Shown: positions 11,474 through 14,745 of the stretch, piece after piece
How positions within the stretch are numbered: position 1 is the stretch's first letter
How the letters are laid out: each line of letters starts with the position of its first letter
Source: an uncultured Gammaproteobacteria bacterium
Lineage (GTDB): Bacteria; Pseudomonadota; Gammaproteobacteria; HK1
Reading direction: 5' to 3'
Assembly: GCA_958295465.1 (NCBI GenBank)
Contig: OY282353.1
Location: 5,261,001-5,325,000, forward strand
Length of the DNA stretch: 64,000 bases
The notes under the pieces: model-generated
Told to the model about the DNA's origin: nothing
What the model saw: only the letters and a program-made list of their open reading frames with translations
The model's database searches: none
Translations under genes and position numbers: made by a program

Positions 11474-12222
11474 ATGGAGAAACGCATGACGCTCGATCTG
11501 AAGACCCTGCGAGACGCGGGCGCGGGCACGGCCGCGGCGTTTCGTTGCGCGACCGACCATCAGCCGGCGGGTGGTCCCGGCGACGAGGTGTTCCCGCCAA
11601 CTCAAGAAGTGAGCAAGTACGCCACGGAGGAACGCATCGATCCCGAAACGGGCGAGGTCAAACCCTGCGTACTCCTCGATTCCGTGCAATCACAGGCCAA
11701 CCGCATGGAGTTGGCCCTTCTGGAAGCGCATCGGGCCGGCAAAGTGACGCTTCCCCAATCAAATTCAGTACGAAACCCGGATCAACGACCGCGGTGAGGT
11801 CGTGAGGGTCAGACCCCGTATTCCGGGTGGCTTCACGATCTCCAAGGCCACGCAGACCACGGTGCTGTCGCTTGCGGCGTTGCGGCGGCTCCGTTTCCCG
11901 TTCAACGGCGCGGCGGATTCCAATCACGAAACGGATGTATCCGCGCGCACCGCACTGGCCGCGCTGGGGCTCGCCGCCGGCACGCTGGCTCGGAACGACA
12001 CGGACCTTCGCTCTCGCTGCCAGCTTTTCGCGGAAACCGCGACGACCTGGGAATTGCTCGATCGTCCCGCGGAGCCCCCCAAAGCGTTCGATCTCGACCA
12101 GGACGCTGCGCTCCGATTGCTGGCGGACGCGATAGCGCAAGCCAGGAAAGCGGAGCTGTCGTGGGAGGATCGGATCGAGCTGACCCCCTCCGCCGAACTG
12201 GTCGAACTCGTTCGCCGCAGCC
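11474..12222 (+). pseudogene. csb1: csb1 (type I-G/I-U Cas7-like) with internal deletion and frameshift
   Basis: The beginning is well preserved: ATG 11474 with GGAG upstream, then TLDLKTLRDA, LQPAGGPGD-type DHQPAGGPGDEVFPP, YATEERIDPETGE and LLDSVQSQANRMELALLEAH, all hallmarks of Csb1 (GSU0053 family). After about residue 100 the frame breaks (11780-11797). Sequence resumes in another frame with the family's C-terminal part: [52 protein letters not shown]. From memory of the family, about 150-180 middle residues including the Gly-rich core are missing. The gene cannot make a working backbone subunit. It runs directly into an Rpn fragment. Confidence 0.82.
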
Positions 12223-12230
12223 AGGAATAC

Positions 12231-12630
12231 GTCGGCTCCGACCTCCACCACCGCATCGGCGACATGGTCTGGCGTGTCGAGTTCAAGCCCGGCAGCCCCT
12301 CGGGCGGCCCGCCGCTGGCCAACGGCGAACGGCCCTGCCTCCTCATCCTGTTCGAGTTCCAGTCCGGCGTGGACCCCGACATGGCGTGGCGGATGCACGA
12401 GTACGTCTACCTGCTGCACCGTCATCTGCGCCACAACGGGACGTTCAAGGCAGAGGGGCGCGAGCCGCCGGTGTTGCCGGTGGTCGTCTACAACGGAGAA
12501 CGTCCGTGGACGGAGTCGGGTGCACGGCCGGGGCCGGTGGCGCCGCCGGGGACGGCGGACTGGATTGGCAACGAGGCGCGGGCCTACGCACTGCTCGATG
12601 AGCGGGCGCGGGCGGACGATGGCGATCGAC
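12231..12630 (+). pseudogene. Rpn-family nuclease fragment inserted in the cas remnants
   Basis: In frame with the csb1 C-terminal piece, the sequence becomes [63 protein letters not shown]. This is the PD-(D/E)XK core of Rpn (Transposase_31) proteins, with the D of GDMVW and the E-x-Q of FEFQS. It closely parallels the intact gene at 19488-20573. Both ends of an Rpn protein are missing. A short duplication ([18 protein letters not shown]) marks its right junction. Confidence 0.8.
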
Positions 12631-12895
12631 TTTGGGAGGTCGAGCCGCGGCCGGAGGACGATCGGCTTTGGCGGCTCGCGACCGCGAAGAAGACCCTGAG
12701 CCGGGCGAATGCAGTGCCGGCCACCGCCGGGACCGCCGACCTCGCCGCGTACCTCGTCGCCGCCCATCATGGGAAGGTACGAATGAATCTGCGCGCTCTG
12801 CCGCGTGAACGTGCGCCGTCGGACAAGGATCAAGCTGGCGCACGCTTCGCACGCGGAGTATGGGAAGCCGACGAGTTGCAGCCGTTCGACCTGGG
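12631..12895 (+). pseudogene. cas3: Cas3 HD-domain fragment (type I-G/I-U)
   Basis: Still in the same open frame as the Rpn fragment: [20 protein letters not shown] (about 12739-12800) and [19 protein letters not shown]. The AAHHGKVR and [10 protein letters not shown]-type motifs are what I know from the C-terminal HD nuclease part of type I-U Cas3. Only about 80 residues remain. No helicase motif is found anywhere in the window. The assignment relies on remembered family motifs. Confidence 0.6.
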
Positions 12896-13676
12896 GCGAA
12901 CCGCCTGGAAGCAGTTTGCTGGGACGAGGTAGCCGACGACTGGGCGCCGGCTCTCAAGGGATTGCCGGTCGTCAAGGTGATCGATGAAGAAGGAAAGCCC
13001 CTCACGAACTCACTGCTCGAGGCGCACCGGCTCAATTCGCCATACATTCTTGAAGGCCAAGGACAAATCGGTTGTCGAGATGTTGAAGAACCGCCTCGCG
13101 GCGATGGAAGTCGGCCGTGTCGATCTGCGCGAGCTTGCGAAGGTACTCCTCGAGTTCGATACGAACGCGCTGCTCCACGGAGTTTTTCTTGCGAAGAAAG
13201 ACCTTGCCGGAGGCCGACTGCGCTTGCCGCGATCGCTGTCCGCCTTCATCGAAGCAGAGAACGCGAGGCGGGCGGCGAGCGGCGGGGTCAAGAACGACAG
13301 CGTCAACCCCTCCGGCGATACCGCCAAGGGTTTCGGCAACGTGCCCTTTGCGCGCGACGAATGGGTCGCAGCGAAGATCACCGCCTGTTTCAACCTCGAT
13401 CTTCGTCAGATCCGCGCGTTTGGTCTCGGCGCCGATGTCGAACGACTGCTGGTCATGCTGGCCCTCTTCAAGATCCGAAAGTTTCTCGTGGAGGGTCTGC
13501 GCCTTCGCACCGCCTGCGATCTCGACGCGGAATCCATCCTGGTGAAACGCCCCGACGGATTCGAATTGCCGAGCCTTGACAGCCTGGAAGCAGAGCTTCC
13601 CGGGCTGATCCAGGACGTAGCGTCCAAGGGCCTCTTCGGGGAGAACCCCGTTCTCACCGTCACCTATCGGAAGTGA
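12896..13676 (+). pseudogene. cas7: cas7 (type I-G/I-U), 5'-truncated and frameshifted
   Basis: Begins abruptly within the Cas3 fragment as [11 protein letters not shown], then [15 protein letters not shown] in one frame. A single extra base near 13060 shifts to the frame that carries [78 protein letters not shown] and the stop at 13676. This is the type I-U Cas7 backbone family. The N-terminal ~60 residues and reading frame are lost; the remaining 200-residue stretch is otherwise well conserved. csb2 follows after 4 bases, the original operon spacing. Confidence 0.8.
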
Positions 13677-13680
13677 GAAG

Positions 13681-14460
13681 ATGTTCGCGCTCGTTTTCCA
13701 CTTCCCGGCCGGTCGCTACCACGCGACACCGTGGGGGCGGAACGTCAACGAAGCCGACGTTGCCTGGCCGCCCGAGCCCTGGCGCCTGCTTCGCGCACTC
13801 ATCGCCGCCTATTGGCGAAAGGGCGACCGCGAACGTTGGCCCGAAGAGCGTCTTGCGGGTTTGATCGATGCGCTGGCTGGATCGCCCCCTGCTTACCGCC
13901 TGCCGGAAGGCGCGGTCCATGCGCATACCCGCCATTACATGCCGATCGGAACGATCGACAAGGGCCGTGAGAAAACGTCGCTGGTCTTTGATGCGTTCGT
14001 CCGCCTGCCGGAACGAGGGATGGTCGTGGCGGCTTGGCAGGATGTGACGCTGGAAGGCGACCTGTTCGCTCTTGCCACCGATCTCGCCGCGGCCATCGGC
14101 TATCTCGGTCGTGCCGAAAGCTGGGCGGACTGCGAGGCTCTCGCCGATTGGCGGGACGAGGCCAATTGCGGCCCCGTGGACACGGGATTTTCCGGCGACC
14201 CGGTGCGGCTTCTCACGCCTCTCCAGCCTGAGACGTATGCCGCCGAACGCAGACGCTTGATCGCAGGCGCAAGAGAGCGTATCTGCACGGCGGTAAAAAA
14301 GCCGCCTTCACCGAAGAAACTCGAAACCGAGATTGCAAAATCATTCCGGAGCAGGAGAAGCGGAATGGACACCTTGCCGGAGCGCCTCGTCGACGCCCTC
14401 AATCTCGACACCTCGGACTATCAGGACCGGGGTTGGAGCCGCCCTCCCGCCGCTCGCGAG
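13681..14460 (+). pseudogene. csb2: csb2 (type I-G/I-U Cas5-Cas6-like), 3'-truncated
   Basis: Start ATG is intact and the N-terminus is diagnostic for Csb2 (GSU0054 family): FPAGRYHATPWGRNVNEADV, then WPPEPWRLLRALIAAYWR, HTRHYMPIG, KGREKTSLVFDAFVRL. In type I-G this protein combines the Cas5 and crRNA-processing Cas6 roles. Homology holds to about GWSRPP (14434-14451). The frame then runs on into antisense IS66 sequence to a stop at 14565. About 260 of the usual roughly 450-500 residues remain, so the C-terminal Cas6-like part is gone. Confidence 0.82.
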
Positions 14461-14504
14461 GTCGTCTACACCCGAGAAGCGAAGCGGCGGCTCGCCGATG
14501 GGCG

Positions 14505-14745
14505 GCGACCTCGGTGGCCGAGGTGCTCTCGGACTCCTGCGCCGCGCTGGCCTCGGCCTCGTTGAACAGCCCGAGCTGCCCGTCGGGGAGCTTCTCCGAC
14601 GCCTGCCCCCGAATGTCTCTATCGGGGACGGCGCGAAGTGCCGGGCAAGCAGCAGGCGCACCTGCACTTGCAGGTGCTCGGTCCTCGCATCGCGCTGTGC
14701 GATGGCCGCGTCGCGCTCCGATACGCGATGTCACGACGTGATGTC
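14505..14745 (-). mobile_element. IS66-family transposase (TnpC) N-terminal remnant
   Basis: On the minus strand one frame reads ERDAAIAQRDARTEHLQVQV then RLLLARHFAPSP. After a short insertion the next frame reads SEKLPDGQLGLFNEAEA, then ATEVAAHRR. LPDGQLGLFNEAEA is the well-known N-terminal motif of IS66 TnpC. About 80 of ~500 residues remain and the frame is broken, so it is inactive. Its left edge coincides with the point where csb2 homology ends, so insertion or deletion through this element probably truncated the CRISPR operon. Confidence 0.8.

Follow-up and report, generated by a model that had tools for sequence, protein, structure and literature searches.

The broken type I-G CRISPR-Cas locus described here is, as judged by DNA comparison, an eroded second copy of a type I-G locus, the largely complete parent of which lies elsewhere in the same chromosome. 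The chromosome is a single 5.68-Mb contig, and the window, the whole 64,000-nucleotide stretch that was analysed, comprises its bases 5,261,001–5,325,000. Window positions 11373–14483 consist of seven blocks, ordered and on one strand, each of which matches a single locus at 854.5–891.5 kb with 91–99% DNA identity when the remnant is compared, by DNA search, with the genome it comes from. By block, identity to the parent is 91% for ogt and the spacer behind it, 93% and 94.5% for the N- and C-terminal parts of csb1A, 98.75% for rpn, 94.5% and 97.6% for the two pieces of cas3B, and 96.1% for csb1B together with half of csb2B. Because all blocks are collinear with one parental locus at such identities, a chance origin of the pieces is ruled out. 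The account as a whole, in which the second copy of a segment holding ogt and the type I-G locus is dead, worn by internal deletions and joined to an IS66 scrap and the xdh flank, is very probably correct. A first-pass annotation of the window, made from the letters alone, had recognized a type I-G locus in pieces that was destroyed over several steps, and the collinear blocks of one parent bear this out; the largely complete parent and its array in the same chromosome lay beyond the reach of that annotation and were found by the DNA search of the own genome.

The type I-G locus and its eroded copy

In the parent locus the genes are arranged in the order ogt, cas3A, Cas3-extension, csb1A, csb2A, rpn, cas3B, csx17, csb1B, csb2B, cas4-cas1, cas2 and CRISPR array, the array consisting of 60 repeats of one type at 887–891 kb. 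Parental products include Csb1A of 435 aa, Csb2A of ~794 aa, Rpn of 332 aa and Cas3B of 899 aa (TIGR02621, E = 3e-217), and the Cas3-extension gene was assigned by NF049934. The parent (stretches L097, L006, and L007; 854–891 kb of this genome, G000) is made up of two tandem type I-G effector modules with rpn between them and a single cas4-cas1-cas2 set with its array. By HMM comparison, module B is complete for type I-G and module A is also present; the part at 876–891 kb holds cas3, csx17, csb1, csb2, and cas4-cas1 above curated cut-offs, the array, and a cas2-like gene that was assigned by position and similarity to relatives, without an HMM match of its own.

The features of the window copy and its neighbours are as follows, in window coordinates and with parental coordinates where a match is given; J0 to J5 denote the internal junctions from left to right.

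10680–11220, plus strand: ogt (methylated-DNA-cysteine methyltransferase), the left neighbour; 91% to the intact ogt at 854.5 kb; DNA_binding_1, E = 3e-31
11221–11423, plus strand: ogt-cas3A spacer, ending at J0; collinear with 855072–855274, followed by a jump to 871363
11424–11473, plus strand: final few codons of Cas3-extension, with the spacer that leads to csb1A; matches 871369–871419
11474–11756, plus strand: N-terminal part of csb1A, residues 1–94 of 435; 93% to 871420–871702; PF09617, E = 4e-16
11757–11813, plus strand: csb1A variable loop of another allele, 20 residues, right of J1; no close match in parent DNA
11814–12228, plus strand: C-terminal part of csb1A, parent residues ~288–425; 94.5% to 872281–872695; frame differs from that of the N-terminal part
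12228–12624, plus strand: internal piece of rpn, parent residues ~45–177 of 332; 98.75% to 875502–875901; PF04754, E = 6e-9
12618–12740, plus strand: scrap of the cas3B helicase part, parent residues ~260–308; 94.5% to 877219–877363
12735–12895, plus strand: scrap of the cas3B HD part, parent residues ~774–830; 97.6% to 878762–878929; TIGR02621 positions 765–799, E = 2e-7
12895–13676, plus strand: csb1B residues 60–318, frameshifted; in a 1589-bp block with 96% identity to 881707–883294; TIGR02570, E = 1.6e-14
13681–14483, plus strand: csb2B, first ~268 of 556 codons; TIGR02165, E = 6e-30
14489–14718, minus strand: IS66 tnpC scrap, transposase residues ~46–113; 83–85% to seven genome sites; 26-bp internal insertion
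14718–14805, no strand: dispersed ~90-bp repeat that opens the right flank; more than 10 copies in the genome; the 94.7% match to sister genome G002 starts here
14958–17255, plus strand: molybdopterin hydroxylase large subunit (xanthine dehydrogenase/hydroxybenzoyl-CoA reductase type), the intact right neighbour; MoCoBD domains, E below 1e-64; orthologues in relatives
11802–12932, plus strand: 376-codon open frame over the csb1A C-terminal part, rpn, and the cas3B scraps; J2, J3, and J4 in frame

The remnant begins further to the left than the first-pass annotation had placed it, with 11373–11423 being ogt-cas3A spacer that directly abuts the final codons of the Cas3-extension gene, so that cas3A and nearly the whole Cas3-extension gene are deleted at J0. 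Two one-base insertions, which could in principle be read errors, are found in the window copy, one near 10808 that frameshifts ogt and one at ~13057 that is the sole cause of the csb1B frameshift. The loop of csb1A that lies to the right of J1 belongs to a stretch that is hypervariable when csb1A is compared across 13 loci.

Every cas gene that can be recognized in the remnant is of type I-G (formerly I-U), the gene set of which comprises cas3g, cas8g/csx17, cas7g/csb1, csb2, cas4-cas1, and cas2. In this system Csb2 is a Cas5-Cas6 fusion and Csx17 is Cas8g (PMC9638904). Since type I-G has Csb1 as its Cas7, the block at 12895–13676 is a second csb1 (csb1B), giving two csb1 paralogues, both of them truncated; the gene previously read as a truncated and frameshifted cas7 does carry both lesions, and its identity is corrected by the TIGR02570 match. 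HMM searches, which had been proposed as a check, returned matches for the csb1 parts, the Cas3 HD scrap, and csb2, and the description of csb1 as N- and C-terminal parts without a middle is upheld by the parental residues to which the blocks correspond and, for the N-terminal part, by PF09617. In contrast to a type I-G locus proper, the window copy has no csx17, csb2A, cas4/1, cas2, or array, and retains only parts of csb1A, csb1B, csb2B, and cas3B: neither csb1 is intact, csb1B being frameshifted as well as truncated, csb2B ends after ~268 of 556 codons, and cas3 persists only as the two scraps of cas3B. A search with the known I-G repeat found no array at the window copy, all 60 repeats being those at 887–891 kb; an orphan type I-G array elsewhere in the genome, also proposed earlier, was not found with this repeat, the sole array of this type belonging to the parent. 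Nor did csb1 or the parental CRISPR repeat occur at any further site in this genome besides the parent and, for csb1, the window copy. As no complete effector subunit, large subunit, adaptation genes, or array remain, no function is expected, and the window copy is most likely incapable of giving a working CRISPR effector.

Truncated and frameshifted cas genes persist in decayed cas loci once a copy loses function, and the window copy likewise holds cas genes of both kinds. It differs from other decayed loci in that a largely complete parent resides in the same chromosome and base-level mapping is possible for most of the deletions. The remnant is ordinary pseudogene decay of a known system, in an unusually legible form.

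Junctions, mobile sequences and the long open frame

The window copy lacks about 13 kb of uninterrupted parent, by arithmetic on the coordinates, in addition to everything to the right of mid-csb2B. Its collinear blocks and junction sequences show that at least six separate internal deletions wore it down, some with short repeats at their ends and others with none. At J0, where the spacer meets the end of the Cas3-extension gene, there is a 6-bp microhomology (GCGCCG, 11418–11423); J3, from rpn to cas3B, has 7 bp of exact microhomology within a 17-bp near-repeat, and J4, within cas3B, has 6 bp (GCCGAC). J2, from csb1A to rpn, and J5, from cas3B to csb1B with a change of frame, have 1 bp each. 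The frame also changes at J1, within csb1A, the position of which is approximate since its right side is the variable loop of another allele. Microhomology of 6–7 bp is therefore present at three of the five cleanly resolved junctions, a level (at least 6 bp at three of five) that was reached in none of 40,000 draws of random breakpoints placed at the same distances. Illegitimate recombination, through replication slippage or alternative end joining, would account for such deletions, although no one mechanism is demonstrated because J2 and J5 share only 1 bp of homology. None of the window junctions was shared by any relative searched, and the counterpart locus of the sister genome carries two deletions of its own, both differing from those of the window. 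The deletions lie side by side rather than nested and no searched relative has a junction in common, so that their order cannot be read, contrary to the earlier expectation that it might be readable from relatives. Self-targeting was considered as a cause of the deletions and set aside: 59 spacers from the parent array and 85 from that of G002 gave only chance-level matches of 15–21 bp in the DNA stretches compared.

At the right edge, csb2B homology stops at 14483 and is followed by the tnpC piece on the minus strand and, from 14718, by the xdh flank, which is 94.7% identical to G002. The tnpC piece scores below the Pfam cut-off and is certain as a DNA match, at 83–85% identity over 14489–14718 to seven other sites in the genome, one of which, on examination, holds a gene for a 557-aa IS66 transposase. 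Short dispersed repeats of ~50–130 bp occur in the window at 639–815, 11207–11282, and 14718–14805, the last at the right edge of the remnant, and have many copies in both G000 and G002.

The first-pass annotation proposed that the operon had been intact at this site and was then broken by Rpn-linked recombination and insertion of IS66, which made the breakpoints. Both sequences do occur in the remnant, and DNA cleavage has been described for Rpn proteins, the products of toxin-antitoxin genes with activity against phage (PMC10327210). However, in both this genome and sister G002 the parent locus has an intact resident rpn of 332 codons, flanked by csb2A and cas3B, and the window piece is cut at both ends, by deletions of the same kind as the rest; four of the six internal junctions have no contact with rpn. 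Rpn could in principle promote breaks in trans, yet the breakpoints are not clustered around rpn. The IS66 sequence, for its part, is an internal stretch of tnpC of ~204 bp, confined to the outer edge and without element ends flanked by a target duplication; csb2 does break off after its first half (TIGR02165) beside the IS66 scrap, as had been described, and insertion of the element at that point is unsupported, although an insertion later trimmed by deletions may have taken place. An origin of the breakpoints in Rpn and IS66 is accordingly rated as very improbable. The piece at 12228–12624 comes from a gene of the Rpn/YhgA-like proteins (PF04754; PMC10327210) and differs from the proteins of that report in being internal, without the C-terminal region that gives the antitoxin RpnS, its parent gene being resident in a cas locus. 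An anti-phage role of Rpn would fit a resident gene of a defence locus.

The single long open frame over Csb1, Rpn, and Cas3 pieces that was pointed out previously is real, at 376 codons, and the Rpn core is in frame with a Cas3 HD scrap (PF04754, TIGR02621) as stated, with the amendment that a second Cas3 scrap, from the helicase part, lies between them. It could be supposed that selection maintains this chimera as a new gene, for instance as a Csb1-Rpn-Cas3 fragment with a modulating effect in trans on the intact system, given that the frame is free of stops and kept over three successive junctions. By arithmetic, however, three in-frame junctions in a row have a chance of 1/27, and at least three of five in frame a chance of about 0.2; blocks joined in their own coding frame seldom hold stops, the Rpn piece is without its N- and C-terminal parts, the Cas3 pieces are without most of the protein, and the fusion is absent from the relatives searched. 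Selection for such a gene is considered very improbable, and expression of the Csb1A-Rpn-Cas3B chimera together with an effect on the cell's own intact type I-G system, or on the crRNA backbone of that system, is hardly to be expected. As three or more of five junctions in frame are expected about one time in five, the long frame needs no special cause and is best taken as an unremarkable product of joined coding blocks.

History of the two copies

The counterpart of the parent locus in the sister genome G002 lies at 1278–1302 kb, and its array has no spacer in common with the parent array in the part compared. In the relatives G003 and G004, the genes upstream in the window are followed by ogt in the same order, which places the window copy at the old site of ogt; no match to the cas locus was found in the stretches compared there. 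Nowhere among the relatives searched was the arrangement of the remnant seen as an intact operon, the outcome that had been named as counting against a destroyed locus.

Different parts of the locus group differently. A ~77-bp repeat after ogt is present in both copies of this genome and missing from G002, and rpn likewise pairs the two copies (98.75%, vs. 96.5% to G002), whereas csb1B/csb2B pairs the parent with G002 (about 99%). From the 3′ end of csx17 to csb2B, at 880.5–883 kb, G000 is about 99.5% identical to G002, compared with ~95% along most of the locus. This segment of the effector core is, on present comparisons, a recent recombination tract, which accounts for the grouping of csb1B/csb2B. 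Pooled differences between the copies number 84 synonymous and 81 nonsynonymous, with a dN/dS of about 0.4 by arithmetic, and suggest a divergence that arose partly under selection while functional and partly after decay.

This mosaic history leaves a simple duplication unproven, the other possibility being that a related strain was the source of the copy, which would have been imported through recombination at ogt as a diverged or previously damaged locus. Import would suit the csb1A loop from another allele, the difference of up to 9% between the copies, and the 99.5% recombination tract common to the parent and G002; Csb1A is moreover 95% identical in a record named as Vicinamibacterales, which implies that such loci move between distant bacteria. 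It is opposed by the ~77-bp repeat and the closest rpn match, which only the two copies of this genome have in common, and by a left flank that belongs to the lineage itself, and is on balance judged a serious though distinctly less likely alternative, with duplication favoured. Misassembly of reads from the parent locus could be suspected from the single contig, possibly of a metagenome assembly, and from the two one-base insertions if these are read errors, but the blocks differ from the parent by 1–9%, one allele is found nowhere else in the DNA compared, and several junctions are precise, which makes an artefact almost negligible in likelihood.

Under the favoured duplication, the ancestor would have carried ogt, cas3A, Cas3-extension, csb1A, csb2A, rpn, cas3B, csx17, csb1B, csb2B, cas4/1, cas2, and CRISPR in that order, and the segment would have been duplicated within the lineage at about the time when G000 and G002 separated. 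One copy is preserved, largely complete, at 854–891 kb, with its counterpart at 1278–1302 kb in G002. The other, beside the old neighbours of ogt, has lost pieces through at least six internal deletions as well as all that lay to the right of mid-csb2B, and has become joined to the IS66 fragment and then the xdh flank. Its products are presumed to be inert.

The parental modules and what the remnant means

Module A, made up of csb1A, csb2A, cas3A, and Cas3-extension, is found in the related loci L039–L050 with no match to the Csx17 of this genome and often with its own cas4-cas1 and cas2. In L039 (OY282382.1, the Vicinamibacterales record), the proteins of module A are about 85–95% identical to those of this locus, and the record bears the name of another phylum; either module A was recently passed between distant bacteria or the record is misassigned. 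In the parent, a 2.08-kb IS that encodes a 602-aa DDE transposase is present in two direct copies (98%), at 857795–859876 and 867622–869703, which enclose ~7.7 kb and split cas3A; in L039 cas3A is uninterrupted.

In Csb2A, an insert of ~280 residues separates the Cas5-like part from the Cas6-like part and contains an invariant PRPP motif, VDDFxGQGGTLANLRG. Proteins with the insert are encoded at L039:11305–13686 (plus strand), in the parent (G000, 872727–875111), and in L040, L041, L042, L043, and L045; it is missing from the Csb2 of L044, L046, L048, and L049 and, by tblastn gaps, from that of L047 and L050. The insert resembles phosphoribosyltransferases weakly, at E = 4e-4 to 0.04 in Pfam, where it falls short of the cut-off, and at E = 2e-4 for PDB 6fsp and 5zgo; the AlphaFold model of Csb2A, with a mean pLDDT of 46, was set aside. 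A literature search found no published report of a phosphoribosyltransferase-Csb2 fusion.

With module A itself damaged by the split of cas3A, module B of the parent would be the source of whatever type I-G immunity the cell has. The parent is of greater interest than the remnant, having tandem type I-G modules, one array, and a phosphoribosyltransferase-like domain within one Csb2. The remnant also calls for caution, since a domain “fusion” or a long open frame in G+C-rich remnants can be a deletion scar. The value of the pair is that a cas locus is visible both largely whole and eroded within one chromosome, which allows the deletions to be mapped to the base and presents decay as the work of many modest deletions, several of them at microhomologies of 6–7 bp, instead of a single transposon hit.
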